Assembly: GCA_028875185.1 (NCBI GenBank)
Contig: JAPPFH010000088.1
Span: forward strand, 1-48,749
Reading direction: 5' to 3'
From: Chloroflexota bacterium
GTDB lineage: Bacteria > Chloroflexota > Anaerolineae > Aggregatilineales > Phototrophicaceae
DNA: 48,749 nucleotides
Positions 4,427-47,471 of this stretch are shown here, piece after piece. A program made the translations under genes and the position numbers. The notes beneath the pieces were generated by a model. It had not been told where the DNA came from and made no database searches. It was given only the letters and a program-made list of their open reading frames with translations. The first letter of the stretch is position 1, and each line of letters starts with the position of its first letter.

Positions 4427-4436
4427 TGCTTACCTC

Positions 4437-6956: not shown

Positions 6957-6980
6957 ACATGCAACTTAGTATTTGGAAAA

Positions 6981-7012: not shown

Positions 7013-7033
7013 AATTCAATGTCGGCGCCCACG

Positions 7034-8799: not shown

Positions 8800-8840
8800 T
8801 ACAGTTTTCCTGTGGCTCGGTCCCAAATCACGCAGGGGCG

Positions 8841-9035: not shown

Positions 9036-9044
9036 AAAAGCGCC

Positions 9045-15105: not shown

Positions 15106-15206
15106 GTATCAATATTTCACCACTTCCGCTTGATTTAAGCGCTCGGTTAGATTTTCAAGCTAAGTTAGAATAGGGTAAACAGCGAGCGCGGAATGATGTG
15201 AGGACG

Positions 15207-15935: not shown

Positions 15936-15952
15936 CGAAAGTAATTGAGACC

Positions 15953-26702: not shown

Positions 26703-26861
26703 GATGTTGTCGGCGCAGCGATCAAGTCGCGTTCGCAATCTTCAGGGCTGATTGAAAGTCGTTTCATCCGCGAGAGGCTGATGTCGCGCAAGCGCCAAAA
26801 GCGACGGACAAGACGATAATTGAGATGATAACCATTATGTCGTGAATTCAGTGCGAAACGG

Positions 26862-26891
26862 TTGCAAATGGAACATAAGACTCGGTAGAAT
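26862..26891 (+). promoter_or_regulatory. Candidate promoter of the second importer operon
   Basis: TTGCAA (26862-26867) and TAGAAT (26886-26891) are separated by 18 bases. The leader to ATG 26932 would be about 35 bases. Confidence 0.5.
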
Positions 26892-26931
26892 CAGCGGTCA
26901 GCGAAAATCAACAGATAGGAGATTAGATAGG

Positions 26932-28221: not shown

Positions 28222-28240
28222 GCGCCGGCTTCAGCGAAAA

Positions 28241-28382
28241 TTGTAGGGGCGAGGCTCGCCTCGCCCTAAACCAGCAAAGGCAATGCGGGCGAGCCACCGG
28301 CTCGCCCCTACACATTGCCATAAATGCGAGCCTTGTAGGGGCGAGTGATGGATATTGTTGGCGGTCAGTGTCGACGCGGCCT
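28241..28382. repeat. Three hairpin repeats between binding-protein and permease genes
   Basis: GTAGGGGCGAGGCTCGCCTCGCCC (28243 on), GGGCGAGCCACCGGCTCGCCCC (about 28288-28309), and a third with GTAGGGGCGAGTGATGG...GGCGGTCAGTGTCGACGCGGCC (28336-28382). Together they fill most of the gap 28222-28418. Confidence 0.8.
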
Positions 28383-28418
28383 AAGCTACCCTTGTCTCGC
28401 CCAATTGGACCAGTAAGC

Positions 28419-29336: not shown

Positions 29337-30166
29337 GCGGCAAAGCGCAGCGGCGGCTGCAGGGCGCGCCCTTCTACTTCTTGCTGACGCTGGCGACTGT
29401 CATCACCCTGGTGCCCATCATCTGGGTCTTCGCCAGCGCGCTGAAGTCCAACAAAGAAATCCGCGAAAACGCCCTCGCGCTGCCACAGGAGTGGCGCTTT
29501 CAGAATTATCTTGACGCCTGGTTCGGCGCCAGCTTCGATGAATATTTTTTCAATAGCATCTTCATCACGGTGACGAGCGTCGCCATAGTGCTGTTTCTGA
29601 GTTCCTTGGCCGCGTATTCATTTGCCAAAATGCGCTTTCGCGGCAATCAGATGATCTTTTTTCTCTTTCTCGTGGGCATGGCCTTTCCCTTGTCGGCAAA
29701 GCTGGGACCCTTGCTTTCCCTCATGTACGAATTGAATCTGGCAAATAGCCGCTTTGGCTTGATCCTGGTCTACGTAGCGGGCAGCTTGCCCTTCGCCATT
29801 CTGATGCTGCGCGCCTTCTTTCAGGGCTTCCCGCAAGAGCTGGAAGACTCGGCCGCGCTGGACGGCTGCAACCGCTTCCAATTCTACCTGCGCATCCTGC
29901 TGCCGCTGTCCAAGCCATCGCTGATGGCGCTGGGCATATTTGTCTTCATGGGCACTTGGAACGAATTCTTCCAGGCGCTGCTCCTGATCAACGAAGACAG
30001 CAAGCGCACCTTGCCATTGGGCTTGACCGCCTTCCAGGACGAATACTTCACCGACTTTGCTTTGTCCTTCGCCGGCATCAATATCACGGCGGTGCCAGTG
30101 ATCATCGTCTATATCATGTTTCAGCGCAATCTAATCGAAGGCATCACGGTCGGCTCGCTCAAATAG
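29324..30166 (+). CDS. Carbohydrate ABC transporter permease (MalG-type)
   Basis: About 280 residues, six membrane helices. The EAA-like loop is ELEDSAALDGCNRFQFYLRI, then LLPLSKP, and the MalG-type end is NLIEGITVGSLK. Starts GTG 29306, 29315 and 29324 are all possible. The last has GGGAG about 9 bases upstream and gives a 13-base overlap with the preceding gene. There is no ATPase gene nearby. Confidence 0.88.
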   Translation: MEFLSGKAQRRLQGAPFYFLLTLATVITLVPIIWVFASALKSNKEIRENALALPQEWRFQNYLDAWFGASFDEYFFNSIFITVTSVAIVLFLSSLAAYSFAKMRFRGNQMIFFLFLVGMAFPLSAKLGPLLSLMYELNLANSRFGLILVYVAGSLPFAILMLRAFFQGFPQELEDSAALDGCNRFQFYLRILLPLSKPSLMALGIFVFMGTWNEFFQALLLINEDSKRTLPLGLTAFQDEYFTDFALSFAGINITAVPVIIVYIMFQRNLIEGITVGSLK

Positions 30167-30212
30167 GGCAGCAAATCTTGCATTCACATTTGGAAAAGGA
30201 CGTCTGAACGGC

Positions 30213-31718
30213 ATGGCACATTCAAAACCCAATATCGTCTTCATCATCGCCGATCATCAAGCCTTCTACGGGCACGATCGCGAAGGCGAATACGAGTACA
30301 AGTGGCCCAATTACGAACGCTTCGCCTCGGAAGGCCTTCGCTTCGACCGCGCCTATTCGGTCTGCCCGCTCTGTTCTCCGGCGCGCAGCAGCATGATGAC
30401 CGGCGTCTACCCCAGCTCGCACGGCATCATCATGAATACCGAAGGAGAGATCTTCGGGAACCAATCCGATCTTGACTCGGGGCAAAGGCTCTACAGCCAC
30501 TACTTGTCGCAGGCTGGCTATCGCAATGGCTACGTCGGAAAATGGCACTGCGGCCGCCAGCGCCTGCCCATCGACTACGGAATTGAAGGCTGGAGCTTGC
30601 CCGATTATGGCAAGATCTACATGTCCGACGAATACAAGCGCTATGCCGAGGAACGCGGATTCGGCGATGCGCGCGCCCAGATCGAGTACAACATCAATTA
30701 TCCCGAGTGGCGCGGGCAAGAAATCGTCTTGCATGATCCGTCGCCTTGGAAGTTTATGAACGGCTCGGGCGTCCTGGCTGGACCGCCGGAAGCCCATGAA
30801 GAGCAATTCGTCGCCCATCTGGCTTGCGAGAAGCTGCGCGAATTCGCCGCCGACGATCAGCCATTTAGCCTGGTTGTCAGCCTCTGGGGGCCTCACCAGC
30901 CTTATTACCCGTCTGAGGAATACGCGGCGCAGGTTGACCCAGCCAACATACCCGAATACCCGAGCTTCCGCGACGACTTGAGCGGGCGCCCGCTCCGTCA
31001 CCTCTACCACCGGGAAATCTCCCATCAAAGCGCGCGATCCTTTCCCGAATGGTCCACCTGGCAAGAGATCCTCGCCCGCTGCTACGCGCAGGGGTATCAG
31101 ACCGACGCCGCCGTCGGAAGCGTGCTGGATACGCTGGATGAACTGTCGCTTACGGAGAACACCATTGTGATCTGGCTAGCGGATCATGGCGATGCCGTGG
31201 CCAGTCACGGCGGCTTGTGGGACAAGTCCTCAACCTTTATTGAGGAGGTCGTTCGCGTGCCCATGGCGATTCGTTGGCCCGCGGCAATCGACGGGGGCGC
31301 GCGTACCGAACAGCTGGTGTCTAATATGGACGCGACCGCTACTATCCTGGACGCCGCCGGCATTGACGCGCCAGATACTATGCACAGCCGCAGCCTGCTG
31401 CCGCTCTGCCAGGGCGCCGATGATGCCGACTGGTCCGATGAGCTGGTCTGCGAGCACATGGGGCATGGTGGACATTTCTTTCCCATGCGCATGATCCTGC
31501 ATGACCGCTACAAATACGTTTTCTCGCTGCACGACATGAACGAACTCTACGATCTGCAAGATGATCCGTTTGAACTGAATAACCTGGTTCACGACAAGCA
31601 GTACGCCGATGTCACCGTTGATATGCGGGCGCGCCTGACGCGGCATCTCGAGGGCTCGACAATGCGCGATCAAAGACTGAAGCGCGTTATGCTGCTCGCC
31701 TTGGAGCATGGCCAGTAA
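30213..31718 (+). CDS. Type I sulfatase
   Basis: A formylglycine-dependent sulfatase of 501 residues that releases sulfate from a sulfate ester. The activation site CSPAR is at 54-58 (PLCSPARSSMMTG), with Cys54 the residue to be oxidised. Metal and active-site stretches are FIIADHQ at the start (Asp14), GKWHCG near 110 and IWLADHGD around 317-324. There is no signal peptide, so it should act in the cytosol on an imported sulfated compound, which fits its place 46 bases after the importer permeases. Subfamily and substrate (sulfated sugar or another ester) cannot be set here. No formylglycine-generating enzyme is in the window. Confidence 0.92.
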   Translation: MAHSKPNIVFIIADHQAFYGHDREGEYEYKWPNYERFASEGLRFDRAYSVCPLCSPARSSMMTGVYPSSHGIIMNTEGEIFGNQSDLDSGQRLYSHYLSQAGYRNGYVGKWHCGRQRLPIDYGIEGWSLPDYGKIYMSDEYKRYAEERGFGDARAQIEYNINYPEWRGQEIVLHDPSPWKFMNGSGVLAGPPEAHEEQFVAHLACEKLREFAADDQPFSLVVSLWGPHQPYYPSEEYAAQVDPANIPEYPSFRDDLSGRPLRHLYHREISHQSARSFPEWSTWQEILARCYAQGYQTDAAVGSVLDTLDELSLTENTIVIWLADHGDAVASHGGLWDKSSTFIEEVVRVPMAIRWPAAIDGGARTEQLVSNMDATATILDAAGIDAPDTMHSRSLLPLCQGADDADWSDELVCEHMGHGGHFFPMRMILHDRYKYVFSLHDMNELYDLQDDPFELNNLVHDKQYADVTVDMRARLTRHLEGSTMRDQRLKRVMLLALEHGQ

Positions 31719-34598: not shown

Positions 34599-34799
34599 AT
34601 GCAGAGCGATAAGCCGCCGCTTGATGCGGACGAGGTTACGGAGCAGCTAACCTGGCTGGCGGAGATGCTGCGAATGGATGTCGAAAAAGAAGACCTAATG
34701 GCGCTATCAGAGCAGTTGCGGCGTATTGACGCGCTGGAAAAAGCGGCGCTTCGCGATGTGCCGCCGATACTGAGAATGGATGCCGGCTGGCATGACTGA
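34599..34799 (+). CDS. AtzG/GatC-like small amidase partner
   Basis: 66 residues, helical: PLDADEVTEQLTWLAEMLRMDVEKEDL, then LSEQLRRIDALEKAALRDVPPILRMDAGWHD. The pattern of two helices and a tail that wraps an amidase is that of GatC and of AtzG, the small partner of 1-carboxybiuret hydrolase AtzE. GGAG lies 9 bases before the ATG. Its end overlaps the start of the amidase gene (20 or 8 bases, depending on that start), so the two are translated together, which supports partnership. Confidence 0.75.
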   Translation: MQSDKPPLDADEVTEQLTWLAEMLRMDVEKEDLMALSEQLRRIDALEKAALRDVPPILRMDAGWHD

Positions 34800-36216
34800 T
34801 TCGCGCTCCCTTATCAATTTGTCCATTCTAGAAGCGGCGACCGCTCTGCGGCGCGGCGAAACAACAGCGGTCGCGCTGACCGAAGCCATCCTCATGCGCG
34901 TCAAAGAAACCGAGCCGATGCTGCAGGCTTATGCCACGCTGCCGGTCGACAAGGCGCTGGCGGCGGCGCAACAGGCCGACCGGGAGCTGGCCGCTGGGCG
35001 CGATCGCGGTCCCTTGCATGGCATCCCCATCGGCGTCAAAGACAATTGCTATACCATGGGCATCCTCACCGAAGTGGGGTCGAAGGTATTAAAAGGCTTT
35101 GTGCCCGACTTTGACGCGACGGTCGTGCATAAGCTGTACGAGGCCGGCGCCATCCTGATCGGCAAGACGCGCTGCCATGAATGGTCCTGCGGCGGCAGCG
35201 ACCCGCCGACGCGCAGTCCCTGGGACCTCGAGCGCTTCCCCGGCGGCAGCAGCATCGGCTCCGGCGTCGCTCTGGCGGCGCGCTCGGCTTTCGCCGCGAT
35301 TGGCACCGATACCGGCGGATCAATCCGCATACCGGCGTCGATCAATAATCTTGTCGGCATGAAAGCGACATACGGACGCGTGAGCGCTTATGGCGTTCTG
35401 CCCTTGGCTTGGTCGCTTGATCACGTCGGTCCCTTGACGCGAACCGTGCGCGACAATGCGCTCATGCTGGGGGCGATCGCCGGGCACGATCCCAATGACG
35501 CCAATTCCGCTCGCGTCAACGGGGCTGACTTTACGGCTGGCATTGATGGCGGCGCGCGTGGGATGCGCATCGGCATCGACCGCGCATATTTCCTGTATCC
35601 TGGCGTGGTCGACAGTGTTCGCGCCATCACCGAAGCCGTCATCAATGAATTGGCGCGGCTGGGCGCGGACATAATTGTGGTCCGCTTGCCCGAGCTGGAA
35701 CTGACGCGCGAGACGCAGATGACCATCCGAATGGTGGAATCGGCCAGCTATCATCGCCATCAGATACGCGAGAAGGGGCATCTCTACAGCCCGGGCACAC
35801 GCGCCACCTTGCGGATGGGTGAGCCTATTCTGGCGACGCAGTATGTCGCCGCCCTGCGCGCCCGCGAACTATTCCGCTCTGCCATGAAGGAGCTTTTCCG
35901 GCGGGAGAATCTGGATGCGCTGATATCGCCGACGATTCCCGTGCCGGCGCCACTGCGCGAAGATGTCTGGCAAGCGCGCGCTGACATGGAAAACGGCGAG
36001 ACGCCCACCGATGGATTCGTGCGTCACGTTTACCCCGCCAATCTGAGCGGACAGCCGGCGATCAGCGCGCCTGGCGGCTTCACACCCGAGGGCTTGCCTG
36101 TCGGTTATCAGTTGATGGGAAAGCCCTTCGATGAAGCGACGCTTTATCGCATCGCCTTCGCCTACGAAGCGACGCGGGACTGGCATAGACGTCAGCCGCC
36201 GCAAGTTTACGCTTGA
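34780..36216 (+). CDS. Amidase-signature hydrolase (AtzE/GatA-like)
   Basis: 478 residues. The Ser-cisSer-Lys triad is complete: Lys87 (GVKDN), Ser157 (PGGSSIGSG) and Ser181 (TDTGGSIRIPAS). Enzymes of this family cleave amides; GatA forms do so on tRNA-bound glutamate with GatB, which is absent here. Together with the small AtzG/GatC-like partner, a free-standing heteromeric amidase such as an AtzE-type hydrolase is likelier than tRNA amidotransferase. ATG 34780 (GAG 5 bases upstream) or ATG 34792 (in an ATGACTGA overlap with the previous stop) may be the start. It precedes the third importer operon but is separated by a promoter region. Confidence 0.87.
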   Translation: MPAGMTDSRSLINLSILEAATALRRGETTAVALTEAILMRVKETEPMLQAYATLPVDKALAAAQQADRELAAGRDRGPLHGIPIGVKDNCYTMGILTEVGSKVLKGFVPDFDATVVHKLYEAGAILIGKTRCHEWSCGGSDPPTRSPWDLERFPGGSSIGSGVALAARSAFAAIGTDTGGSIRIPASINNLVGMKATYGRVSAYGVLPLAWSLDHVGPLTRTVRDNALMLGAIAGHDPNDANSARVNGADFTAGIDGGARGMRIGIDRAYFLYPGVVDSVRAITEAVINELARLGADIIVVRLPELELTRETQMTIRMVESASYHRHQIREKGHLYSPGTRATLRMGEPILATQYVAALRARELFRSAMKELFRRENLDALISPTIPVPAPLREDVWQARADMENGETPTDGFVRHVYPANLSGQPAISAPGGFTPEGLPVGYQLMGKPFDEATLYRIAFAYEATRDWHRRQPPQVYA

Positions 36217-36368: not shown

Positions 36369-36411
36369 TTTTGCTCGCAAAATGTTGTTTATAGGCAAAA
36401 TAGGTTATACT
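36369..36411 (+). promoter_or_regulatory. Shared-operator promoter A, upstream of the third importer
   Basis: Palindrome TTTTGC-TC-GCAAAA (36369-36382); a second weaker site has its GCAAAA at 36395-36400, centres 18 bases apart. TATACT (36406-36411) follows as a likely -10. The same paired layout recurs at 42372 and 46221. The gap 36217-36537 has no gene. Confidence 0.7.
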
Positions 36412-36537
36412 CGCGCTAGTGATGCTGAAGGGCATACTTAGCGTGCTTCGAGCGGAAAGGAGTAAGCTGGATATGACATTTTGCGGCGGGACTGGTTTTT
36501 GTTTGACAGGTCACCATTAGACAGGAGAGAGTCAATT

Positions 36538-37893
36538 ATGTTGCGAAGAATTTGCCTGATTGTACTGGCGTTGACAGTGATTAGCGTATTCGCTGTCGGC
36601 GCGCAGGATGAAGCGCAGTACGCCGGCTTGGACATGGACTTGTCCGGCATTACCATAAGGATGGCGAATATTGGCGGCGGTCAATATGAAGCCATGTACG
36701 AGTCGATTTCAGTTTTCGAGGAAGCGACCGGCGCCACCGTGGAAATCGTCGCCTTGCTGGACGGCTTCGCGATTGACCAGAAGCTGAAAGTCGATTTCGC
36801 CACAGGCGCGGCCGATTACGATGTTGCCTGGGATCACACCAGCTTCGTCGCGCAATACACGAACTTTTTGCTGCCGCTGCAAGACTTTTTCAGCGAAGAA
36901 GAGCTGGCTGCCTTCAGCCCAGCGATCCTTGAAGCCGCCACGATTGACGGCAACTTGTACTTGATCCCGCGCCACGCCGATATCAGCCCAATACATTATC
37001 GCGCCGACCTCTATACGGACGATGCGATCGCAGCCGCTTACATGGATGCGACCGGTGAGGAGCTAAGCGTCCCTTCGACCTTGGAGCAGATCGACCGGCA
37101 AGCGCGCTTCTTTGTCGACAATGGGCACGCCACCTTCGGCTATGTTTTGGCTGGCAAGGAAGAAGCCTTGACCGGACGCTTCTACGAAATGCTCTTCGCC
37201 AGTGGCGGCGCGCTATTCAACGATGCTTACGAACCGACCTTCAATGACGAAATTGGCGTCGCCGTCGCTGAATTGCTCGCGAGCTGGTATGCTGACGGAG
37301 TCATTCCGTCGGACACGACTTCGCTGCTCTGGGACGGCGTCGCCCAATACTTCTGCAACAACGATGTCGCCATCAAGCTGGAGTGGTACGGTTGGTATGC
37401 GTACTTCCAGGGTGCCGATTCCTGCGCGGTTGCTGGCAACTTTGGGTTGGCGCGCGGCTTCACTGGACTGTCGGTTGGCGGAGACGCCGTGCGCCCATCG
37501 GGTTGGGCCGGCGCTCATGCCTTCTCAATTCCGGCCACCGCGCCGAACCCGCAGGCGGGCGCTCAGCTGATCAAGTTCCTGGCTTCGGAACGGGTCGCTT
37601 ACGAAGAAGCGCTGCTGGGCTTCTTGCCGACGCGCAACGATGTCTGGGATCGCATCATCGCTGACGCGGCCGATGCCGAGAATCCGCTGGATCGCGAACG
37701 GCTCGAGCTGGCGCGCATTCAAGTCGGTGAAGACTTCAAGACGCCGCCGCTGATCGCCGAGTGGATTCCGTTCTCGAACTTGTTCTACCCTCAGTTGCAA
37801 GCGATCATCTTGGGCGATATCGGCGCGCAAGCAGGCTTGGATGCCGCGGCCGAAGCCACCCGCGAGCTGATGGCTGACGCCGGCTACTTTTAG
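36538..37893 (+). CDS. ABC solute-binding protein (third importer)
   Basis: 451 residues. The signal peptide is 1-21 (MLRRICLIVLALTVISVFAVG, cut near GAQ). No lipobox. The mature part has binding-protein features: ITIRMANIGGGQYEAMYESI, FEEATGATVEIV and DVAWDHTSFVAQYTNFLLPL, in part. The long C-terminal segment resembles sugar-binding ABC proteins. ATG 36538 is supported by AGGAGA about 9 bases upstream and the signal peptide. It is the first gene of the third importer and has operator A at its promoter, shared with the CoA-transferase/lactonase and MaoC/RraA units. Confidence 0.9.
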   Translation: MLRRICLIVLALTVISVFAVGAQDEAQYAGLDMDLSGITIRMANIGGGQYEAMYESISVFEEATGATVEIVALLDGFAIDQKLKVDFATGAADYDVAWDHTSFVAQYTNFLLPLQDFFSEEELAAFSPAILEAATIDGNLYLIPRHADISPIHYRADLYTDDAIAAAYMDATGEELSVPSTLEQIDRQARFFVDNGHATFGYVLAGKEEALTGRFYEMLFASGGALFNDAYEPTFNDEIGVAVAELLASWYADGVIPSDTTSLLWDGVAQYFCNNDVAIKLEWYGWYAYFQGADSCAVAGNFGLARGFTGLSVGGDAVRPSGWAGAHAFSIPATAPNPQAGAQLIKFLASERVAYEEALLGFLPTRNDVWDRIIADAADAENPLDRERLELARIQVGEDFKTPPLIAEWIPFSNLFYPQLQAIILGDIGAQAGLDAAAEATRELMADAGYF

Positions 37894-37974
37894 CGCCTGG
37901 CGGGTCATTCAAAACGGACGATCACAAGCCAGCATGTGGCTCATACAGAGCATGAGCCCGCGAAGATGAGAATA

Positions 37975-38180
37975 TGTAGGGCTTGTCGGTAGTGAGGAGG
38001 CGACCCCGCATTTTCCACCCCATCCCCCCAGCCCCCTTCCCCAGCGAGCTAGGGAAGGGGGAGCGTTCGCACTGCGAACAAGGTCGCTCAGTATTCTCGC
38101 CGATAATGCACGCGAATCTCCCAGATTTGGCGTCGAGTCACCCTTCCTCAGTTCACTGGGGAAGGGCCGGGGATGGGGTA
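37975..38180. repeat. Inverted pair of C-rich repeats between binding-protein and permease genes
   Basis: A copy at about 38020-38070 (CCCCATCCCCCCAGCCCC...TAGGGAAGGGGGAG) and an inverted copy at about 38138-38179 (CACTGGGGAAGGGCCGGGGATGGGG) could pair into a long hairpin in the mRNA. The gap 37894-38259 holds no gene. Confidence 0.65.
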
Positions 38181-38259
38181 AACTCTGCTGTATACAGGCA
38201 TTGTTTAGAACCGCACAGCCTTCCGCCGCGAGCAACCATTCAAACCTCACTCTATCGCC

Positions 38260-39216
38260 ATGGCTGCCAATTCCAATAGCCCCGGTGAAAAGGGCGCGGC
38301 AACACGCTTCTTAGAAGTCAGCCGGATTGAGGCGGGCTTTTTCCCTTTCGCTATGATCTCGCCCGCGCTAATCCTCATCTTGTTGGTGGTTGGCTTTCCG
38401 CTGCTTTATTCGCTCTACGTGAGCTTCACCCCCTATGAGCTTCTTAAGCCCAACAGCTTAAACTTCACGACCGCGAGAGCGCTGCGCAATTATCAGAAGC
38501 TGCTAAACGATGAGATATTCTGGCGCTCGCTGTGGAATACGATTGTATTTCTGGCCGTGACGGTGAACTTGAGCTACGCGCTTTCGATGGCGCTTTCGCA
38601 GTTGTTGGCGCGGGTGACAGTGGGGCAGAGCCTGCTGCGAACCTTGCTGATGGTGCCGATGATGTTCGCGCCCATCCTGGTTGGCATGCAGTTCCGCTGG
38701 TTCTTCAACGCCAACGTTGGCTTGGTAAACAACTTCTTGATCAGCATCGGGCTCATCCAGGAGCAGGGGCAGATCGCCTGGCTGGTTGATGTGCCGCTGG
38801 GCATGATCTCAATCATGATCGCCTCGATCTGGATGAACATCCCGGTGCTTACGATAATTCTGCTGGCGGGCACGCTGTCGTTGCCGTCGGAGACCTTTGA
38901 GGCCGCCGAGGTGGATGGCGCCTCGGGCTGGCAGAAATTCCGCTTCATCACCTTCCCGCTGCTGGCGCCCTTTTCTTATATCGCCTTGACCATCATGTCG
39001 CTGGATATCGCGCGCGCCTTCGATATCGTGCGGATCATGACCGATGGCGGACCGGCGCGGCGCACCGAAATGCTCTGGACCTATATCACGCGCCTGGCGA
39101 TTGAAGACACCAAATTCGGATTGGGCAGCGCGATGTCTTGGATAACCGTGAGCCTGTCGGTGCTGTTCACTTTGTACTTCTTCCGCCAGTTGGTTAAGGC
39201 GAGGATCGTGCAATGA
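38260..39216 (+). CDS. Carbohydrate ABC transporter permease (MalF-type)
   Basis: 318 residues, six membrane helices; the first is ISPALILILLVVGFPLLYSLY near 30-50. The EAA-like loop is ETFEAAEVDGASGWQKFRFI, then TFPLLAP. The start lacks a clear Shine-Dalgarno sequence. It follows the binding-protein gene after a 366-base repeat-filled gap. Confidence 0.9.
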   Translation: MAANSNSPGEKGAATRFLEVSRIEAGFFPFAMISPALILILLVVGFPLLYSLYVSFTPYELLKPNSLNFTTARALRNYQKLLNDEIFWRSLWNTIVFLAVTVNLSYALSMALSQLLARVTVGQSLLRTLLMVPMMFAPILVGMQFRWFFNANVGLVNNFLISIGLIQEQGQIAWLVDVPLGMISIMIASIWMNIPVLTIILLAGTLSLPSETFEAAEVDGASGWQKFRFITFPLLAPFSYIALTIMSLDIARAFDIVRIMTDGGPARRTEMLWTYITRLAIEDTKFGLGSAMSWITVSLSVLFTLYFFRQLVKARIVQ

Positions 39217-39244
39217 TAGCGCGTCAGCGCATCCGCGCGATTTT

Positions 39245-39271
39245 CGGGCGAGCCGCCAGCTCGCCCCTGCA
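39245..39271. repeat. Hairpin repeat between the two permease genes
   Basis: GGGCGAGCCGCCAGCTCGCCCC in the 91-base gap; in the other two importers the permease genes overlap. Confidence 0.7.
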
Positions 39272-39307
39272 ATTCGCCAGCTTTTGGATGCGGCATAGGA
39301 TCGACCA

Positions 39308-40177
39308 GTGATCACGCGCAGCGTCGGACCAAACCGCCAGCGAAACGACCGCATCTGGAACGCGGTCGCCTGGGTGGTCTTGCTTATGTTGGCGCTGCCG
39401 GCTTTGTGGATCATCATCACCGCTTTTCGCCCCAATGTCGAGATCAACACATTCCCGCCGGTTTGGATTCCGCAGCGGCTGACCTTGGAAGCCTACGCCA
39501 ATATGTTCGGGCTGAATCCGGAGGTGCAGCAGCGCGTCGCGGTGGAGGCTTATCTGCGCAACTCGCTGCTGGCATCGGGGGTAAGCACAGCCATCGCCGT
39601 AGCCTTGGGCACGCTGGCGGGTTACGCTTTCGCGCGCTTCCGGTTTCGCTTTCACACGCCCTTGTTTCTGGGCATCATGCTCTCGCGCGCTGTGCCCGGC
39701 GTCGCGCTCAGCCTGCCATTATTTCTGCTCTTCAATCGCTTCGGGCTGGTGAACAATGTGCTGGGATTGGCGCTCGTTTACATTGCGATCAATATCCCCT
39801 TCACCGCTTGGCTGATGGATGGCTTCTTTCGGCAGATCCCCAAGGAATTGACGGAATCAGCTTATATCGATGGCTGCGGATATTGGTCGGCTTTTTGGCG
39901 GATTGAGTTGCCGCTCTCGCTGCCGGGGCTGGCCACAGCCGCCATATTCGCCTTCCTGGCTGCCTGGAACGAATTTCAGATCGTCAGCGTATTGGCGCGC
40001 AACAATGCGGCGAAGACTTTCCCGCCCGGTCTCTTCGCCTTCACCGAGCAGTTCACCGTCGATTGGCGCGGCATGGCGGCGATGAGCGTGATTATGATGG
40101 CGCCGGCGGTCATCTTTGTGATTCTGGTTCAGCGCAACCTGGTCAGCGGTTTGACATTTGGCGCGGTCAAGGGATGA
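39308..40177 (+). CDS. Carbohydrate ABC transporter permease (MalG-type)
   Basis: 289 residues, six membrane helices. The EAA-like loop is ELTESAYIDGCGYWSAFWRI, then ELPLSLP, and the end NLVSGLTFGAVKG is MalG-type. GTG start. Together with the previous permease and the binding protein at 36538 it forms an importer lacking only its ATPase, which must be shared from elsewhere. Confidence 0.9.
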   Translation: MITRSVGPNRQRNDRIWNAVAWVVLLMLALPALWIIITAFRPNVEINTFPPVWIPQRLTLEAYANMFGLNPEVQQRVAVEAYLRNSLLASGVSTAIAVALGTLAGYAFARFRFRFHTPLFLGIMLSRAVPGVALSLPLFLLFNRFGLVNNVLGLALVYIAINIPFTAWLMDGFFRQIPKELTESAYIDGCGYWSAFWRIELPLSLPGLATAAIFAFLAAWNEFQIVSVLARNNAAKTFPPGLFAFTEQFTVDWRGMAAMSVIMMAPAVIFVILVQRNLVSGLTFGAVKG

Positions 40178-40208
40178 TGCGCCGCGCCCACGTCAACCGA
40201 GAATCATG

Positions 40209-40243
40209 GTAGGGTGTATACGGGCTAGCCGGTGGCTCGCCCC
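40209..40243. repeat. Hairpin repeat after the permease gene
   Basis: TAGGGTGTATACGGGCTAGCCGGTGGCTCGCCCCC, a diverged copy between convergent genes. Confidence 0.55.
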
Positions 40244-40283
40244 CATGCTTGCAGCCTAGGCGAAGGGGGAATTCGGTCGGTGC

Positions 40284-40607
40284 CTAATCCACATGGAAAA
40301 CTTCTTCGATAGTATGCCACCACTCGCCCTCGGCGCGCTCATCGACCGGCTTCTGCATCGGCATGCAGACTTCCCACCATTTCTGCGTGGTCTCGTCGGC
40401 CGCCATTTTCGCCATATCCGCTTCAAAGTCGTCGCCGTGATATTCCATATAGGCGAAGAGCAGATCGCCGTAACGAAAGATTGAATAATTGCGCAGATTG
40501 CATTCTTCGATTTTCTTCAAAACGCCGGGCCAAACATCCGCGTGCAGACGGATGTATTCATCCGCGTCTTCCGCGCGTAAGCCGATGACTTGTCCAAAAC
40601 GCTGCAT
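40284..40607 (-). CDS. L-rhamnose/L-fucose mutarotase-like protein (RhaM family)
   Basis: 107 residues, the normal length of RhaM-type mutarotases that interconvert the alpha and beta forms of a free sugar. It has RFGQVIGLRAEDADEYIRLHADVWPGVL in part (with a catalytic-type His), NYSIFRYGDLLFAYMEY and the paired tryptophans KWWEVCMPMQ. This family acts on deoxysugars such as L-rhamnose or L-fucose, the best clue to the pathway's substrate class. It is the last gene of a three-gene operon with a MaoC-type and a CoA-transferase gene, gaps 10 and 10 bases. Confidence 0.88.
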   Translation of the reverse strand: MQRFGQVIGLRAEDADEYIRLHADVWPGVLKKIEECNLRNYSIFRYGDLLFAYMEYHGDDFEADMAKMAADETTQKWWEVCMPMQKPVDERAEGEWWHTIEEVFHVD

Positions 40608-40617
40608 AATGCCGCTC

Positions 40618-41130
40618 CTATTCTTTTGACTTGTTGAAATTCTGCGGGTGACGGTACATCACCGTTTGCAAATGCTCGCAATACAGCGCCAGGATGCCCT
40701 CGTTCTTGTAGACCTCGTAGCTGACCTTGACTAGACCCATCTCGGGATATTTCGGCTCCTTGCTCAATTGCGTGCGCACGGTGTAGATGGTATCGCCGAT
40801 GAAGACCGGCTTGATGAAGCGGAGCTTGTCGTAGCCGTAGCTGAAAGTGTGCACATTGTTGTGCGCCATCAAGCCCAAGCCGATGCTGAAGACCATTGAG
40901 CCAGCCACGAGCCGCTTGTCGAATATGCCTTCATCGCGAGAGAAGATCTCATCGGCGACATAGGGGTGCATGTCGAGCACAATGGCGTTGAAGATCATGC
41001 ACTCGCCTTCGGAGAGGGTGCGGCGGATCGATTTAATCTTGGCGCCGATCTCGAAATCCTCATACATCCAGGTCTCGGTGTTAAAGAGGGGCAAGTCTTT
41101 GTGCGTTTCCACGGGCGTGTTTTCCGGCAT
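40618..41130 (-). CDS. MaoC-family hot-dog acyl-CoA hydratase/dehydratase
   Basis: 170 residues, a single hot-dog domain. Family segments are [14 protein letters not shown], the helix with [19 protein letters not shown], and [21 protein letters not shown]. The usual catalytic D-x-x-P-x-H reads [10 protein letters not shown], with His just before Pro, so the active site is not canonical. These enzymes add or remove water on acyl-CoA. It lies 10 bases after a class III CoA-transferase gene, which can supply that CoA ester. A second MaoC-type gene is at 45693. Confidence 0.85.
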
Positions 41131-41140
41131 GGCTTTCTCC

Positions 41141-42289
41141 TCAACTGCGGATGGCGTATTCTGACAGGATTCGCGCGGTATCTTCGCCGATTCGCGGCGC
41201 GCCCTTGGCGCTCTTTAAGACTTCGCCATCGATGCGGATGGGGCAGCGCGTGGTATCCAGCTTGACATGCGCATCGCGCGAAACCTCTTGAATCATATCG
41301 ACTGCTTTGAAGCCATCGTGCTCCAGCAAGCGCTCCCAGGTCAAAACATCGGCGCACCAGATATCCTGCGGCTCCAGAATAGCGAGCCAATGCGCGGTTG
41401 ATTCAATCTTGAGGTGTTCGACCAGGATCGCCTTGATTTCGTCCCGCTTTGTGAACCAGGTGGCGGAATCAGTGTAAGCCAGCAATGCCGGGCAATCCAG
41501 CAGATCGCCCAGGACTGGAATCGATCCCATCGCCAGGGCGAGGAATCCGTCAGCTGTCTGATAAATGCCATAGGGCGCGGCGAGATAGGCGTGCGCGTTG
41601 TTGATGGCGCTGCGCTGCGGCAGCTTGCCGCCATCGTTGAGATGGGTAGTGAGCACTTCAAACTGAAAGTCCAGGATAGACTCAAGCAGGCTGACCTGAA
41701 CCAAGCCGCCTTCCCCGGTTACGCCGCGGCGAACCAGACAGGCGAGAATGCCCTGCACCAGATGCGCGCCCGCGAAGAGATCGACGACCGCCAGACCAAA
41801 TGGCGTCGGCGGCCGGTCGGCATCACCATTGAGCCATACCAGACCGGAGATCGATTGCAGCAGCAAATCTTGCCCCGGCTTGTATACCCAAGGACCTTCA
41901 TTGCCGTAACCGGTAATCTCGCCATAGACGATGCGCGGATTGAGGGCGCGCGCCGATTCGTAATCCAAGCCCAGGCGTGTCATCACGCCCGGACGAAAAT
42001 TCTGAATGATGACATCGGCTTGCTTGATCAGGTCCTTGGCGCGGCCGAGATCAAGCGGATCCTTCAAGTTGGCGGCGAAGCTCTCCTTGTTGCGGTTGAT
42101 GGAGTGGAAGAGCGTACTCTCGCCATCGAGCTCGAGCTCAGAGATGTAGAGCTGCCGGCAAAGATCGCCGCCATCGGGCCGCTCGACCTTGATGACGCGC
42201 GCGCCTAAATCGGCTAGGCGCAATGCCGCCGAAGGACCCGACAGAAAAATGCTGAAATCCAATACAAGCAAGCCTTCCAATGGTCTCAT
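41141..42289 (-). CDS. Class III CoA-transferase (CaiB/BaiF family)
   Basis: 382 residues. It moves CoA from a donor thioester to a carboxylic acid. Family marks: [33 protein letters not shown] in part, [32 protein letters not shown] and the catalytic Asp about residue 170 in [20 protein letters not shown] 42289 is chosen because GAGG lies 6 bases upstream; a longer frame starts at 42346. It heads an operon with a MaoC-type and a RhaM-like gene. Its promoter region faces the lactonase gene across operator B. The acid it activates is unknown; the cluster suggests a sugar acid or a product of it. Confidence 0.9.
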
Positions 42290-42371
42290 CGTCGCCTCTG
42301 TTTCTTCTCTGGCTAAAGCGGATCTCGTAAGCCGATCCGGGCGCAACTTGCCGCGAAAGTTAGCGATGCTA

Positions 42372-42410
42372 TTTTGCTTGCAAAAACACTTTTTGTCCGT
42401 AAAATATAGA
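42372..42410. promoter_or_regulatory. Shared-operator promoter B, between CoA-transferase and lactonase genes
   Basis: Palindrome TTTTGC-TT-GCAAAA (42372-42385), then TTTTGT-CC-GTAAAA (42391-42404) 19 bases on, then TATAGA (42405-42410). Over about 40 bases it nearly matches the reverse strand of site C. Confidence 0.75.
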
Positions 42411-42471
42411 GGGCAAAGTCAATTCTGTCAAATCGTCGGGCGGGCTGGATCGCTATTCTTTGGAGGCGAAG

Positions 42472-43317
42472 ATGGTAACGGTTGATACGCATCAGCACTT
42501 TTGGAATCTGGATGAAGTCGCTTATCCCTGGCTCGTGCCGGCATACGGTCCAATTTATCGGACTTATACCGCGGATGAATTGGCGCCGCAGCTTGCGGCA
42601 GCGGGTATCGACAAGACGGTGATTGTCCAGGCGATGGATTCTTACGCTGATACCGATTCGATGCTGGCGATCGCCGAAGCTTACGACTGGGTCGCTGGCG
42701 TTGTCGGCTGGGTTCCGCTGCATGACCCGGCCGAAGCATCCAGGAAGCTGGATGAATACGGGCGGAATCCTTATTTCAAAGGCATCCGGCATCTTATCCA
42801 CGAAGAGACCAATCCCGACTGGGTCACCCAGAAGCAGGTGATTGAGAGTTTGCAAATCCTGGCGGATCGCGACCTTACGTTTGACGTAGTGGCGGTCTTC
42901 CCCAATCATCTCAAGCACGTGCCGACGCTGGCGGAGAAGCTGCCGAATCTGAAGATGGTGATCGACCATCTGGCGAAACCGCCGCTGGGCCCCGACGAGC
43001 GCGCGGTCTGGCGCGCTCAGATGGCGGCTGCCGCCGAAAGTCCCAATGTCTATGCCAAGGTCTCGGGGTTGAACACCGTAACGCCGGACTTTGAAAACTG
43101 GACGTATGAAGACATCAAACCGCTGGTGGATTACGCTCTGGAGCTGTTTGGCGCCGATCGCTTGATGTTCGGCAGCGATTGGCCCGTAGCCGTGCTCGCT
43201 GGCGATTACGCTAAAGTCTGGGAAGAGACGAATAAGTGTCTTGCGGACCTGTCGCAGGCGGAGCGCGAGGCGGTCTTGGGCGGGACGGGCAACAGCTTTT
43301 ATGGGCTGAATCTGTAA
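42472..43317 (+). CDS. COG3618 amidohydrolase, L-fuconolactonase-like sugar lactone hydrolase
   Basis: 281 residues, TIM-barrel hydrolase of the amidohydrolase superfamily. Metal and catalytic residues: VDTHQHFWN (HxH), FDVVAVFPNHLKHV, IDHLAKPPLG (conserved His) and MFGSDWPV (Asp). Characterised relatives open sugar-acid lactones such as L-fuconolactone. ATG 42472 has GGAGG 6 bases upstream; the TTG at 42460 is not needed. It is transcribed away from the CoA-transferase operon and shares operator B with it. It fits a step after sugar dehydrogenation to a lactone. Confidence 0.88.
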   Translation: MVTVDTHQHFWNLDEVAYPWLVPAYGPIYRTYTADELAPQLAAAGIDKTVIVQAMDSYADTDSMLAIAEAYDWVAGVVGWVPLHDPAEASRKLDEYGRNPYFKGIRHLIHEETNPDWVTQKQVIESLQILADRDLTFDVVAVFPNHLKHVPTLAEKLPNLKMVIDHLAKPPLGPDERAVWRAQMAAAAESPNVYAKVSGLNTVTPDFENWTYEDIKPLVDYALELFGADRLMFGSDWPVAVLAGDYAKVWEETNKCLADLSQAEREAVLGGTGNSFYGLNL

Positions 43318-43329
43318 GCGGCGAGCGTC

Positions 43330-43665
43330 CTAGTCAGTGGCCTCAGCTTCAGTTATCGCGTCAATCAAACCCTCGCGCGACAAGATGACTCCCTCAAGCC
43401 TTGCGATACGCTGGTTGCTGTCGTCGAGCTTATCGTCAAGGGCTTTGACATCCTTCCGCAACTCCGATATGTCGGCTTTGAGTTCCGTACGCAATTTGTC
43501 GTTGTCGGCTTTGAGTTCCTCGCGCAGGTCCACGTAATCCGACTTTAACTCGGAACGCAACGCAGCAATCTTTTTGTCAATATCGCGATTGAGCTGCCAA
43601 ACGGCGCCAAATATGGCGACAACCGCGATTACAATATCCAAGGAAAGTGTTGTATCCAATTGCAT
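43330..43665 (-). CDS. Small N-anchored coiled-coil protein
   Basis: 111 residues. A membrane helix (about 9-24, LDIVIAVVAIFGAVWQL) is followed by a long charged coiled coil with an 11-residue-like repeat (LRSELKSDYVDLREELKAD, NDKLRTELKADISELRKD). Function unknown. The product resembles, in reverse layout, the protein at 2470-2784. The ATG at 43665 starts directly before the membrane helix; the frame continues to 43731 without a convincing start. It converges on the lactonase gene with 12 bases between. Confidence 0.65.
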   Translation of the reverse strand: MQLDTTLSLDIVIAVVAIFGAVWQLNRDIDKKIAALRSELKSDYVDLREELKADNDKLRTELKADISELRKDVKALDDKLDDSNQRIARLEGVILSREGLIDAITEAEATD

Positions 43666-43731
43666 CGAGGAATCCCGCTTCGCCGACGCCTGAATTGTAG
43701 CCTTTGTCGGCGCAGTTGGCAAGCTACCCAA

Positions 43732-44817
43732 TCACACCTGAGGCAGTGGCGCGCCGCCATGCTGGCTGGATTCGTAAGCCGCTTCCACCGTCGCCATCGT
43801 CAGAATGGCGTCCTCAACCGATGTGGGCAGGCTGTTGGTTTCGCCGTTGGCATAGCGCATCAGGCTCGCCATCGTGCCGATGAAAGCTTCGGGGAACCAT
43901 GACCCCGCGATATCGAGCGTCCGCCAATTGGATTCGCCTTTATCGTCCAGCAAAATATATTCGAAGCGGTCGGGCGCGCCAATGGGATAATTCATATTGA
44001 GTCCGGCGCGGATCTGAATCGCGCCTTTGCTGCCCTCGAACTTGACGAAGGATTGCTGCTTTTCGGCGCCATAAGCGTGGCTGTGATTGGTCATCACATT
44101 GGCGCGCGGGTTTTCCCCGTAATCCATGATGATCATCGAGCGGGCGCCGCCGCGCAGTTCGGGCGCGCTGGGATGGCTCAACGTCTTCGCGTAAACGCGC
44201 TGCGGACTGCCACAGAAGGAGCGGACGAGATCCACATAATGAATGCTGTGATAAAGGATCTCGCAACGGGGCAAGGGAAACAAGAAGGGCCACAGGTGCC
44301 AGGGCGTATTGCATTGCACGCGGAATTCCAAATCGTAAATTTCGCCGAGGGCGCCGCGCTCGATGATGTCGCGGGCGGCGATGACGAAGGGGGCGAAGCG
44401 CAACTGGAAGTTGATGGCGGCGACCAGCTCTTGTTCGCGGCAGATGCGCAATATCTCTTGAGCGGCGGCAAAGTCTTCGCCCATCGGCTTTTGGATAAGC
44501 ACGGCGCGTCCGCTGGGGATTTCCCGCAAGATATCGGCGATAGCGCTGCCGGGTACGGCGATATCAAAGACGGCGTCGGATGGCGCCTTCGAAATCGATT
44601 CCGACAGCGAGTTGTATAGCCGCGGTATGCTGAAGGTCTCCGCCATCATCGCCGCCCGCTCGCTGTCGATATCATAGCCCCCAACCACCTCAAAGCCGGC
44701 GATTTGATAGGCGGGACAGTGGGCGTCGCGCACGATACCGCCCAAGCCGATGCTGACGATCGGCAAGGGCTTGGCGGGCAATAACGCTGTTTGGCGAATA
44801 TCATCTGCTAGTGGCAT
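43732..44817 (-). CDS. Gfo/Idh/MocA-family NAD(P)-dependent dehydrogenase
   Basis: 361 residues. Rossmann fold (VSIGLGGIVRDAHCPAY; acidic GGYDIDSERA) and the C-terminal family domain. The catalytic lysine segment is IQKPMGED (QKP in place of EKP), and a histidine in LYHSIHYVDLVRS lies where the family's catalytic His is found. It probably oxidises the imported sugar or reduces an intermediate. GAGGA lies 9 bases before the ATG. It is co-directional with the IclR gene upstream (43 bases apart). Confidence 0.88.
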   Translation of the reverse strand: MPLADDIRQTALLPAKPLPIVSIGLGGIVRDAHCPAYQIAGFEVVGGYDIDSERAAMMAETFSIPRLYNSLSESISKAPSDAVFDIAVPGSAIADILREIPSGRAVLIQKPMGEDFAAAQEILRICREQELVAAINFQLRFAPFVIAARDIIERGALGEIYDLEFRVQCNTPWHLWPFLFPLPRCEILYHSIHYVDLVRSFCGSPQRVYAKTLSHPSAPELRGGARSMIIMDYGENPRANVMTNHSHAYGAEKQQSFVKFEGSKGAIQIRAGLNMNYPIGAPDRFEYILLDDKGESNWRTLDIAGSWFPEAFIGTMASLMRYANGETNSLPTSVEDAILTMATVEAAYESSQHGGAPLPQV

Positions 44818-44860
44818 GTGATTTCATCCTCGTCGACTTCTAATTGAACGAGCGGCGGTC

Positions 44861-45655
44861 TCAAGCGGGCTGCCCGGCGAAGTGGGTCAGGCCGGCGCGC
44901 GCGTTGATTTCGCCGGCGCAGCGGAGCAAGGCATGCACGACTTCTTGGGGATCTTTGCGTTGGCGGCTGGCGGTCAATTGCGTGACGGCGATGGCGGCGG
45001 TGACCCCGACTTCCGGATTGCCCACCAGCACCGCTGTATCATGCAAACCTATGTAGGATTCATCGACTGCGGTGGATACGCCGCTTGAGCGAATCTTGGC
45101 GATGCGCGCCCGGAACAGAACACGCTCTTCCGCCGCCATTCGCCGATAGCCATCGTCTTCTTCGAGGATAGCATTGAGGCTGCCCTCATCCATTACCGAA
45201 AGCAACAAGCGACCGGAAACGGTGGATACGAGCGGGAAGGATGTGCCGACCGATACTGAGATCTGCACTTTCTCCGGGCTTTCGGCCTGGCCGACGACTA
45301 GCAGCTGTCCGTGTTGGATAATGCTGATATGGCAAGACTCGCGAATGGCGCGCGCCAACTCTTGCATCGGCAGGATGGCTACGCGCAGCAAGTGTTTCAG
45401 CGGTGAATGACGATTCGCCAGTTCAAAGAGCTTGAGCGTGAGGCTGTACGTCCCATGCGCGTCATCCTTGATGACATAGCCGCTTTCGACCAGACAGTTC
45501 ATCGTGCGAAACAATTGGCTGGCGCTGTTCGCCATCATCTCGGAGATTTGCGACAGCGACAAAGGTTCCGCGGCGCGCGCCAGCAGCTCAAGCGCCGCCA
45601 AGCCCTTTTCCAAAGCCGGCACGCTGTAATTGGGCGCGGATTTCAGTTCCGCCAC
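44861..45655 (-). CDS. IclR-family transcriptional regulator
   Basis: 264 residues. Winged helix-turn-helix at about 10-70 (SVPALEKGLAALELLARAAEPLSLSQISEM in pieces, with SASQLFRTMNCLVESGYV as the recognition region). The effector-binding domain is at about 85-255 (VSVGTSFPLVSTVSGRLLLS; GVSTAVDESYIGLHDTAVLV in part). It lies 37 bases downstream of the MaoC-type gene at 45693, in the same direction, and is the only regulator in this cluster, so it is the natural candidate for the TTTTGC-NN-GCAAAA operators. That assignment is inferred. Confidence 0.9.
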   Translation of the reverse strand: MAELKSAPNYSVPALEKGLAALELLARAAEPLSLSQISEMMANSASQLFRTMNCLVESGYVIKDDAHGTYSLTLKLFELANRHSPLKHLLRVAILPMQELARAIRESCHISIIQHGQLLVVGQAESPEKVQISVSVGTSFPLVSTVSGRLLLSVMDEGSLNAILEEDDGYRRMAAEERVLFRARIAKIRSSGVSTAVDESYIGLHDTAVLVGNPEVGVTAAIAVTQLTASRQRKDPQEVVHALLRCAGEINARAGLTHFAGQPA

Positions 45656-45692
45656 GGTCCAAACCTTTCAACGGCCGCCGATATTGGATGGG

Positions 45693-46151
45693 CTAGTCGG
45701 CCGGCGCGAGTTCCTTGCGCTGCGCGAGGTACAGATGTTGACAGGCGAGCACGATCTGCCCCTGCTGATTGAAGACCTCCACCTGCTCGATGACATAACC
45801 ATGATCGGCGCGCTTGGGATAATCCCGTTTCTCGCTGATGCTGGCTTTCACGGTGATGGTATCGCCGATAAAGACCGGGCGGATGAAGCGGATGCGATCG
45901 TAGCCATAAGAAAAGGCGACCGGGTTAATCTCATTGGCGGTCATGCCGATGGCGACGCTCAAGATTAGCGTACCGTGAGCGATGCGCGCTTTGAATTCTT
46001 GCGTCTTAACCCACTCGGCGTCCATGTGATGGGGGAAGAAATCGCCAGTTTGGCCCGCATGCAGCACGATATCGGCTTCGGTGATCGTCCGGCCGAAACT
46101 TTCGCGGCTGGAACCGATCTCGTAATCTTCAAAATAGGTCGTCTTAATCAT
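45693..46151 (-). CDS. MaoC-family hot-dog acyl-CoA hydratase/dehydratase
   Basis: 152 residues, one hot-dog domain with the canonical catalytic pattern D-x-x-P-x-H in [12 protein letters not shown]. Also [20 protein letters not shown] and [22 protein letters not shown], like the copy at 40618. ATG 46151 is chosen (AGGA 8 bases upstream); the open frame to 46253 crosses operator C. The first gene of a unit with IclR and probably the dehydrogenase, divergent from the cytosolic binding-protein gene. Confidence 0.88.
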
Positions 46152-46220
46152 GGGAATATCCTGGAAGAATAGTGAACTCGGCGGACGATCGCGCTCTGAT
46201 TGACAAGATTGCAATAACTG

Positions 46221-46259
46221 ACTATATTTTGCAGACAAAACTGGTTTTTGCAAGCAAAA
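46221..46259. promoter_or_regulatory. Shared-operator promoter C, between MaoC and binding-protein-like genes
   Basis: Palindromes TTTTGC-AG-ACAAAA (46227-46240) and TTTTGC-AA-GCAAAA (46246-46259), centres 19 bases apart. On the reverse strand ATTTTGCTTGCAAAAAC...TTTTGTCTGCAAAATATAG follows site B almost base for base; TATAGT there would serve the MaoC gene. Confidence 0.75.
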
Positions 46260-46310: not shown

Positions 46311-47471
46311 ATGGGCGCCAAGACCGTCTTGCGCGGCATCACCTGGAATCATTCACGCGGCTTCGTGTCGGTGGTGGCGACGGCGCAGCGATTCTGCGAA
46401 ATTCATCCGCAGGTCGATATCGTCTGGGAAAAACGCTCGCTGCAGGAATTCGCCGATGCGCCCATCCAGGGCTTGGCTGAAGAATTTGACCTGCTCGTGA
46501 TCGACCACCCCTGGGCTGGTTACGCCGCGCATAGTCAAGCGCTGTTGCCGCTGCAGGAGCTCATACCGGCTGAATACCTGCGCAATCAAGCGGCGCACAC
46601 GGTCGGTCGCTCGCACGCGAGTTATATCTTTGACGGCAATCAATGCGCGCTGGCGATTGACGCGGCGACGCCGGTCGCCTCTTATCGCGCGGATCTGCTG
46701 GAGCGCTATGGCTTGGAGCAGCCGCGGACCTGGCGCGATCTGCTGGCATTGGCGCGGCAAGGGCGGGTCATCATGCCGGGTATACCCATCGACACCCTGA
46801 TGAACTTCTATATGTTATGCGCCACCCAGGGAGAACCGCCATTCGTCGATGATGAGTGGGCGGTATCGGATGACATGAGCTTGCTGGCGCTCGAGCAATT
46901 GCGCGAGTTGGCGCGCCTGTGCCCTAAGGATATCTTCGATTGGAATCCAATCGCGGTGTATGAGGCATTGTCGCGGCGCGATGACTTCGTCTACTGTCCC
47001 TTCGCTTATGGATATTCGAATTACGCGCGCGCCGGCTACTCGGACAACTTGCTCACCTTCGACGATATGGTGGATATAGACGGGCAGGGGCGCTGCCAAT
47101 CGACGCTCGGCGGCACGGGCTTGGCAATTTCCAGCCGCTGCCAGGCGCCGGATGCCGCTCGCGACTACGCTATGCTCACCGCGGGCGCTGATATGCAGCG
47201 CACACTCTTCTTCGAGAGCGGCGGCCAGCCGGGGCATCGCAGCGCTTGGGAAGATGCCGAGGTCAACCGGCGGTCGAATGATTACTTCCGCAACACATTG
47301 CCGGCGCTGGACCGAGCATATCTGCGTCCGCGTTTTCCCGGTTATCTGCATTTTCAGGATCACGCCGGCGCGCCGATTCGCGACTACTTGATGCGGGGCG
47401 GCGGCGGGCTGCAGGTGTTGGCGGAACTGAAGCGATTATTCGAGGAAGCCAAGACGCTGTATGCTGAGTGA
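46311..47471 (+). CDS. Solute-binding-protein-like protein without a signal peptide
   Basis: 386 residues of the family 1 extracellular binding-protein fold (GITWNHSRGFVSVVATAQRF, FDLLVIDHPWAGYAAHSQALLPL, VASYRADLLERYGLEQPRTWRDLL, all in part). The N-terminus (MGAKTVLRGITWNHS) goes straight into the first strand. There is no signal sequence, Tat motif or lipobox, and the ATG follows GGAGG at 6 bases, so a longer start is unlikely. The product should stay in the cytosol, where it might sense or carry a ligand. It begins a unit that continues through a 49-residue frame into the RraA-family gene, and has operator C at its promoter. Confidence 0.85.
   Translation: MGAKTVLRGITWNHSRGFVSVVATAQRFCEIHPQVDIVWEKRSLQEFADAPIQGLAEEFDLLVIDHPWAGYAAHSQALLPLQELIPAEYLRNQAAHTVGRSHASYIFDGNQCALAIDAATPVASYRADLLERYGLEQPRTWRDLLALARQGRVIMPGIPIDTLMNFYMLCATQGEPPFVDDEWAVSDDMSLLALEQLRELARLCPKDIFDWNPIAVYEALSRRDDFVYCPFAYGYSNYARAGYSDNLLTFDDMVDIDGQGRCQSTLGGTGLAISSRCQAPDAARDYAMLTAGADMQRTLFFESGGQPGHRSAWEDAEVNRRSNDYFRNTLPALDRAYLRPRFPGYLHFQDHAGAPIRDYLMRGGGGLQVLAELKRLFEEAKTLYAE

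Follow-up and report, generated by a model that had tools for sequence, protein, structure and literature searches.

A 48,749-nucleotide stretch of contig JAPPFH010000088.1 from a Chloroflexota bacterium (assembly GCA_028875185.1), hereafter the window, carries a cluster of uptake and catabolic genes around a regulator of the IclR family, in which three paired palindromes, designated sites A, B and C, are here described as candidate operators of this regulator. The forward strand encodes a sugar-type ATP-binding cassette (ABC) importer, consisting of SBP1 (36538-37893), permF (38260-39216) and permG (39308-40177), and is followed on the reverse strand by the hydratase MaoC1 (40618-41130) and by CoAT, a class III CoA-transferase by family match (41141-42289). 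Next on the forward strand lies AmdH2 (42472-43317), a COG3618-like amidohydrolase which is nearest to L-fucono-1,5-lactonase, scoring 204.1 bits against NF052480 and thus under its cut-off of 400, and which is called the lactonase below. A presumed operon on the reverse strand starts with the MaoC2 hydratase (45693-46151) and continues with the IclR-family regulator (44861-45655) and GfoIdh, a Gfo/Idh/MocA oxidoreductase by family match (43732-44817), while SBP2, a second solute-binding protein (46311-47471), is encoded on the forward strand. The regulator is an IclR-family protein by its domains, as it passes the Pfam cut-offs for both HTH_IclR (37.8 vs 22 bits) and IclR_C (84 vs 24 bits).

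Each of the three sites combines a strong palindrome of the form TTTTGC-NN-GCAAAA with a weaker copy in a fixed register. At site A, on the forward strand upstream of SBP1-permF-permG, the strong palindrome (36369-36382) is followed by a weak copy with three mismatches (36387-36400; 18-bp register). Site B, also on the forward strand, pairs positions 42372-42385 with a weak copy carrying two mismatches (42391-42404; 19-bp register), and site C, on the reverse strand, pairs positions 46246-46259 with a weak copy carrying a single mismatch (46227-46240; 19-bp register). Sites B and C align gap-free over 33 bp, and a manual count gives 33 identical positions out of 39, so that the near-identity over about 40 bases claimed in the original prediction is borne out, as is the paired form itself, with a second copy 18-19 bases off. 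A genome-wide check for equally frequent sites elsewhere, suggested together with that prediction, likewise came out in its favour: the 158 contigs (4.37 Mb) contain the exact 14-mer at three places, namely A, B and C, each time paired with a second copy 18-19 bp away. The pattern read backwards, used as a control, has no match in this genome and only five altogether over 41 genomes. When one mismatch is allowed, 10 places in the genome compare with 9 for the backwards control, and a lone palindrome of this quality is therefore uninformative; within the window alone, five matches at up to two mismatches compare with 2.38 expected, a mild enrichment reached by 8 of 100 shuffles. At 12 further loci (L049 and L051-L061), in genomes with and without the regulator, a stray exact site has no in-register partner even with one mismatch allowed, and we regarded these as chance occurrences. 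What gives the operator case its force is thus the exact tandem form, along with the comparison between genomes; together with the exact 14-mer counts, these led us to reject a chance origin of the three sites. A profile of the tandem site run on the window's genome returns A, B and C, and nothing else, at E ≤ 1.

For the comparison within the genus we used 34 genomes, 23 of which, including the window's own, encode this IclR protein (hereafter carriers), whereas it is absent from 16 genomes of the same order at E ≤ 1e-20. Close relatives in 11 named records are metagenome bins labelled Anaerolineae, Chloroflexi or Chloroflexota, some of which, judging from their isolate names, presumably come from marine sponges. 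In the carriers the core cluster (SBP1-permF-permG, CoAT-MaoC1, lactonase, MaoC2-IclR-GfoIdh and SBP2) is largely kept around the regulator, with some pieces placed on other contigs, moved or missing, as in G013, in which SBP1 has no match at E ≤ 1e-100; the IclR gene of G005 is cut by a contig end. From 46 of the 48 listed sites we built a profile of 33 positions, leaving out site A of G000 (18-bp register) and the degenerate site A of G017; site A of G011 was seen but is not tabled. Run on all 34 genomes, with the best 150 first-look candidates scored per genome, this profile matches at 66 places across its positions 1-33 with E ≤ 1.8e-4, every one of them in the 23 carriers and every one adjoining a cluster gene. 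Twenty carriers have three matches each, and G005, G017 and G022 have two; the six carriers held out of the model (G044-G049) have three sites each. The next match is partial (E 0.019), and the best in the 11 non-carriers reaches 0.0425, with no full site among them. The register at site A is 19 bp in 19 of the 20 genomes examined (20 A sites, with G044 and G049 outside this set) and 18 bp in the window's genome. Conservation is centred on the palindromes and, at B and C, on the adjoining promoter, while linkers and flanks have diverged. The matrix search through genome and relatives thus supports the earlier view of a conserved control element, with sites in 23 of 23 carriers and in none of the 11 non-carriers.

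The genomes lacking the regulator are informative, as many of them keep the enzymes. The lactonase is found in 32 of the 34 genomes, including 9 of the 11 without IclR (79-83% identity), and SBP1 in 4 of these 11. In four of them (G003, G007, G041 and G043) the core cluster is present and precisely IclR is missing between GfoIdh and MaoC2, with approximately 115-135 bases between the aligned ends, and their control regions contain no operator at up to one mismatch. Hence, the operators follow IclR and not the enzymes. In a quick, unrooted tree of lactonase and oxidoreductase from 32 genomes (G014 and G042 have no lactonase match), these four group with G015 in a clade (support 100), which is nested within a group that also holds seven carriers (support 98). 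If the root lies outside this group, the simplest account is a single event, in which one lineage appears to have lost IclR jointly with its operators. A second IclR-less group (G001, G010, G018 and G023) has lactonase and oxidoreductase, but the stretches fetched from it contain neither CoAT nor MaoC2 nor a close SBP1, and it says less on the operators.

At B and C the operator pairs are joined to near-consensus promoters in a constant geometry. The promoter toward CoAT-MaoC1 (42403-42431, reverse strand) and that toward SBP2 (46200-46228, forward strand) both read TTGACA-N17-TATATT and overlap the weak palindrome of their site by two bases; they are the only two 11/12 promoter matches with spacers of 16-18 in the 48.7 kb window. 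Both genes at B lie on one piece in 22 of the 23 carriers (G017 is cut and was covered by the stricter pattern below) and both genes at C in 20 of 23. In these regions TTGACA-N17-TATATT is the best match toward CoAT in 22 of 22 and toward SBP2 in 20 of 20, and a scripted comparison finds the weak palindrome beginning two bases inside the -10 box in all 22 B regions and in 18 of the 20 C regions; the other two C regions (G002 and G017) carry one mismatch in the strong palindrome, and visual inspection gives an identical register for them. With the stricter pattern all 23 carriers have the TTGACA block at B, and all 21 places adjoining SBP2 have it at C, counting the SBP2-side copy of G013. It is absent from the MaoC2-side site of G013 and from site C of G022; in the latter genome SBP2 is some 8 kb distant and the -35 box reads TTCACA. 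In G013 the C region exists in two copies (L035:6317-6349 and L035:19594-19626), one with MaoC2-IclR and without the TTGACA promoter, the other with SBP2 and the promoter, so that the divergent units are naturally separated. The strong promoter thus tracks SBP2, while the MaoC2-side sites of both G013 and G022 retain the tandem operator before MaoC2-IclR. This persistence of the operator where SBP2 no longer adjoins points to self-regulation.

The TATA box which the original prediction had placed beside the sites is present, but at B and C it is mainly the -10 box of the opposite promoters, those of CoAT/MaoC1 and SBP2. We therefore discarded TATAGT as the main -10 of lactonase and MaoC2, since the opposite strand reads TTGACA-N17-TATATT, and likewise a conserved YTGTCAA beyond TATAGT as a third operator box, which is instead the complement of the TTGACA -35 box. 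Toward the lactonase the best match is TTGCAA-N16-TAAAAT (9/12), which lies wholly inside the operator pair of B in 22 of 22 carrier regions; in the window, TTGCAA (42378-42383) and TAAAAT (42400-42405), separated by a spacer of 16 on the forward strand, would form an embedded divergent promoter. The weak palindrome ends in GTAAAA at B versus GCAAAA at C, as if at B it doubled as a -10 box. Toward SBP1, a possible weak promoter consists of TTGTTT (36385-36390) within operator pair A and TATACT (36406-36411), with a spacer of 15 on the forward strand (8/12), and in four genomes (G008, G009, G016 and G021) TTGCAA-N16-TAAAAT is the best match at A; the promoter at A is uncertain, as match scores are no better than on the other strand. 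The IclR-less B regions keep TTGACA-N17-TATAGT without the operator in 4 of 4 scripted cases. At five such loci (L087, L088, L089 and L090 by script, L093 by eye) this promoter points toward the CoA-transferase side, and a TACAAT-like box is found close to the lactonase start.

We consider it likely that the three paired palindromes are the operators of the local IclR protein, acting as an autoregulated repressor of the uptake and catabolic cluster. This reading is carried by computational findings, namely the sites and their conservation, their presence together with IclR and absence together with it, and the arrangement of the promoters at B and C. Two IclR dimers, most likely as one tetramer, would bind the two palindromes, whose centres lie 19 bp or about two DNA turns apart (18 bp at A in the window), a spacing that would place both dimers on one face of the DNA. 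Repression is argued from the fact that the operators span the -10 end and the start site of the near-consensus promoters at B and C. Bound there, IclR would cover these parts of the CoAT-MaoC1 promoter at B and of the SBP2 promoter at C and would act by occlusion. At B it would also cover the weaker divergent lactonase promoter embedded in the operator pair, at C a matching and still weaker promoter toward MaoC2-IclR-GfoIdh would likewise lie under the protein, and at A it would sit over or beside the importer promoter. A substrate-derived effector would then release IclR from the DNA, and activation or mixed action may occur at the weaker promoters. The proposal of one regulon is supported for the importer, the CoA-transferase, MaoC and the lactonase by their shared conserved sites, but not for RraA as a conserved member, which was found after SBP2 in the window's genome only; SBP2 lies on the fetched piece in 21 of the 22 other carriers (not G005), with about 0.5 kb beyond it in G004 and G047. 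In the window's genome itself RraA could be read from the promoter at C.

Several points weigh against this reading. IclR is itself a gene of the cluster, so that an unseen linked factor could explain the co-occurrence, and the assignment of the sites to IclR follows from site geometry and co-occurrence. The embedded promoters match the consensus weakly: of 20 regions at A, 11 have TTGTTT paired with TATACT or TATAGT as one of their two top-scoring matches (8/12), and toward MaoC2 at C, TTGCAA-N16-CAAAAT (8/12) is the best match in just 9 of 20. Site A is without a near-consensus promoter, and IclR may activate there. Moreover, the tree requires two changes of IclR state, and 23 of 23 versus 0 of 11 thus does not amount to 34 independent trials; as the tree has no root, gain and loss of IclR cannot be told apart on it.

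The weaker promoters leave some room for a reading with the same operators and the same IclR, in which the protein acts as an activator or in a dual manner, repressing CoAT and SBP2 and activating the lactonase, MaoC2 and importer promoters. The -35 regions of the latter three lie under the operator and match the consensus poorly, and the promoters at A and toward MaoC2 are weak. The best NCBIfam match of the regulator is the PcaR/PcaU/PobR group (TIGR02431), which includes activators. The IclR family as a whole holds repressors, activators and dual regulators according to the survey by Suvorova and Gelfand (2021, PMC8222616). However, the score against TIGR02431 stays far below the cut-off (104.1 vs 284.75 bits), and the operators at B and C are placed downstream of the -10 box of an 11/12 promoter, where a bound protein would hinder polymerase rather than help it, so that we regard this explanation as unlikely.

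More improbable still is the possibility that the operators serve another DNA-binding protein of the same 23 genomes, with IclR as a linked bystander. In its favour, binding by IclR is itself a conclusion from the pattern of sites, and one further IclR-family protein was found in the window's genome, two in total. On the other hand, IclR lies within the operon behind C, it is precisely IclR that is gone where the operators are gone, and the tandem spacing fits the IclR family as described in PMC8222616. Among the cluster genes scanned no second regulator was found, in line with the original statement of IclR as the sole regulator in the cluster, and the nearest in the window is a two-component pair at 15198-17218; IclR is the best candidate. 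In 22 IclR proteins the effector domain is less conserved than the helix-turn-helix region (the commonest residue has a mean share of 0.81 and 0.90, respectively); the operators themselves vary too little for an analysis of protein-DNA contacts against this region. A last alternative is that there is no operator at all, B and C being alike because a promoter segment was recently duplicated, with the palindromes as A+T-rich promoter DNA. This would account for the fact that both sites share one block running from TTGACA through the strong palindrome, but we virtually dismiss it, since the block is kept at B and C in carriers whose IclR proteins are 67-70% identical while linkers and flanks diverged, site A has operators without a TTGACA promoter, and the IclR-less relatives retain the CoAT promoter without operators, with intact operators in 0 of 11.

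An IclR repressor of this kind would fit well with what is described for the family. For 94 of 181 IclR orthologous groups, tandem palindromes are predicted whose centres are separated by 18-22 bp, and this spacing is linked with binding to one DNA face and with tetramers (PMC8222616). Like the tandem-site groups described there, the present system has two palindromes at such a spacing, which the registers at A, B and C given above match, a small local regulon with self-control, and genes of sugar or acid metabolism and transport, including COG3618. Control of the regulator's own operon and of a neighbouring operon, as in those groups, is mirrored by the presence of site C before MaoC2-IclR-GfoIdh. 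The literature thus already describes tandem sites, small regulons and self-control for IclR proteins (PMC8222616), and the system is of a known and ordinary kind. In contrast, TTTTGC-N2-GCAAAA fits neither of the two consensuses printed there, GKTYCRYW3-4RYGRAMC for group 1 and TGRAACAN1-2TGTTYCA for group 2. Compared with these, the 48 strong palindromes have at least five mismatches to group 1, at least four to its WTT-11-AAW subgroup and at least three to group 2; as the comparison covers printed consensuses, from which single published sites may deviate, a listed group with the same motif is possible. In our own description, WTTYTRY-W2-RYARAAW keeps the WTT half-site with one fixed change and has a centre of two instead of three bases, and 13 of the 48 palindromes match it exactly and 27 with one mismatch.

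Individual family members resemble the system in part. TtgV, an efflux regulator with a solved structure (PDB 2xrn/2xro), matches the window's IclR with E 1.3e-8, a weak similarity. It is cited for tetramer binding on DNA (PMC8222616). The site of TphR from Comamonas, TTTTTGCGCATAGCGCAAAAA (PMC8222616), also belongs to an IclR-family protein and has similar outer half-site letters (TTTTTGC / GCAAAAA); this likeness is one of site letters and not of protein, and TphR differs in its longer palindrome, wider centre and terephthalate genes. A Pca-regulon regulator (8eju) is among the PDB matches of the window's IclR; PcaR, PcaU and PobR, however, have a different published motif, and the cluster genes scanned include no recognisable beta-ketoadipate gene. 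No account of this regulon was among the papers listed by literature searches. We tentatively suggest, with more doubt than confidence, that its distinctive features are an operator form outside the two published consensuses, a single tetramer shutting two overlapping divergent promoters, an erosion of operators after loss of the regulator with the strong promoter kept, and a cluster whose enzymes may process an acid derived from a sugar by way of CoA thioesters. In such a system, TTTTGC half-sites around a two-base centre would bring the arms closer together, and the -35 and -10 boxes of one promoter would lie within the operator pair, which would also extend over the other promoter at its -10 end and start site.

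As to the pathway, it is no more than a reasonable guess that a sugar is oxidised to a lactone, which is opened to give the acid and then taken through CoA-thioester steps. Sugar-acid dehydratases belong to the MR/MLE enolase superfamily. A divergent gene of this superfamily starts 19-21 bases beyond operator A at 6 of the 19 A sites examined (L044:3934-5175, L048:555-1793, L045, L097, L099 and L100), and relatives of it adjoin SBP1 in the IclR-less genomes G003, G007 and G041, whereas the window's genome has no close copy, the best showing 34% identity over part of the protein. The IclR-less genome G023 contains an RraA-like gene (L091:7621-8316), 82% identical to that of the window, beside GfoIdh and lactonase; RraA can thus associate with these genes without IclR or operators. 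Upstream of site A lies an amidase (34780-36216, forward strand), which stands beside the cluster in one relative (G006, 86%), the other genomes often reaching only 1-2 kb upstream. Between lactonase and oxidoreductase, a small predicted coiled-coil-like protein is encoded on the reverse strand (43330-43731), with diverged and at times repeated relatives at the same place in some relatives. Two more clusters with sugar-type binding proteins and permeases are found in the window at 26842-31718 and 2852-10109, one of which adjoins a sulfatase while the other has aldehyde dehydrogenase, DHDPS-like and Gfo/Idh genes.

In conclusion, the cluster offers a complete, testable regulon for a lineage which is known here only from metagenome bins, and the genomes with and without the regulator provide a natural comparison. 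The arrangement also helps to narrow the role of the cluster, as importer, SBP2, dehydrogenase, lactonase, CoA-transferase and two hydratases lie near one switch, joined in some relatives by an enolase-superfamily gene. While this is no new kind of regulation, it supplies a further motif for a family whose DNA code is as yet only partly compiled.

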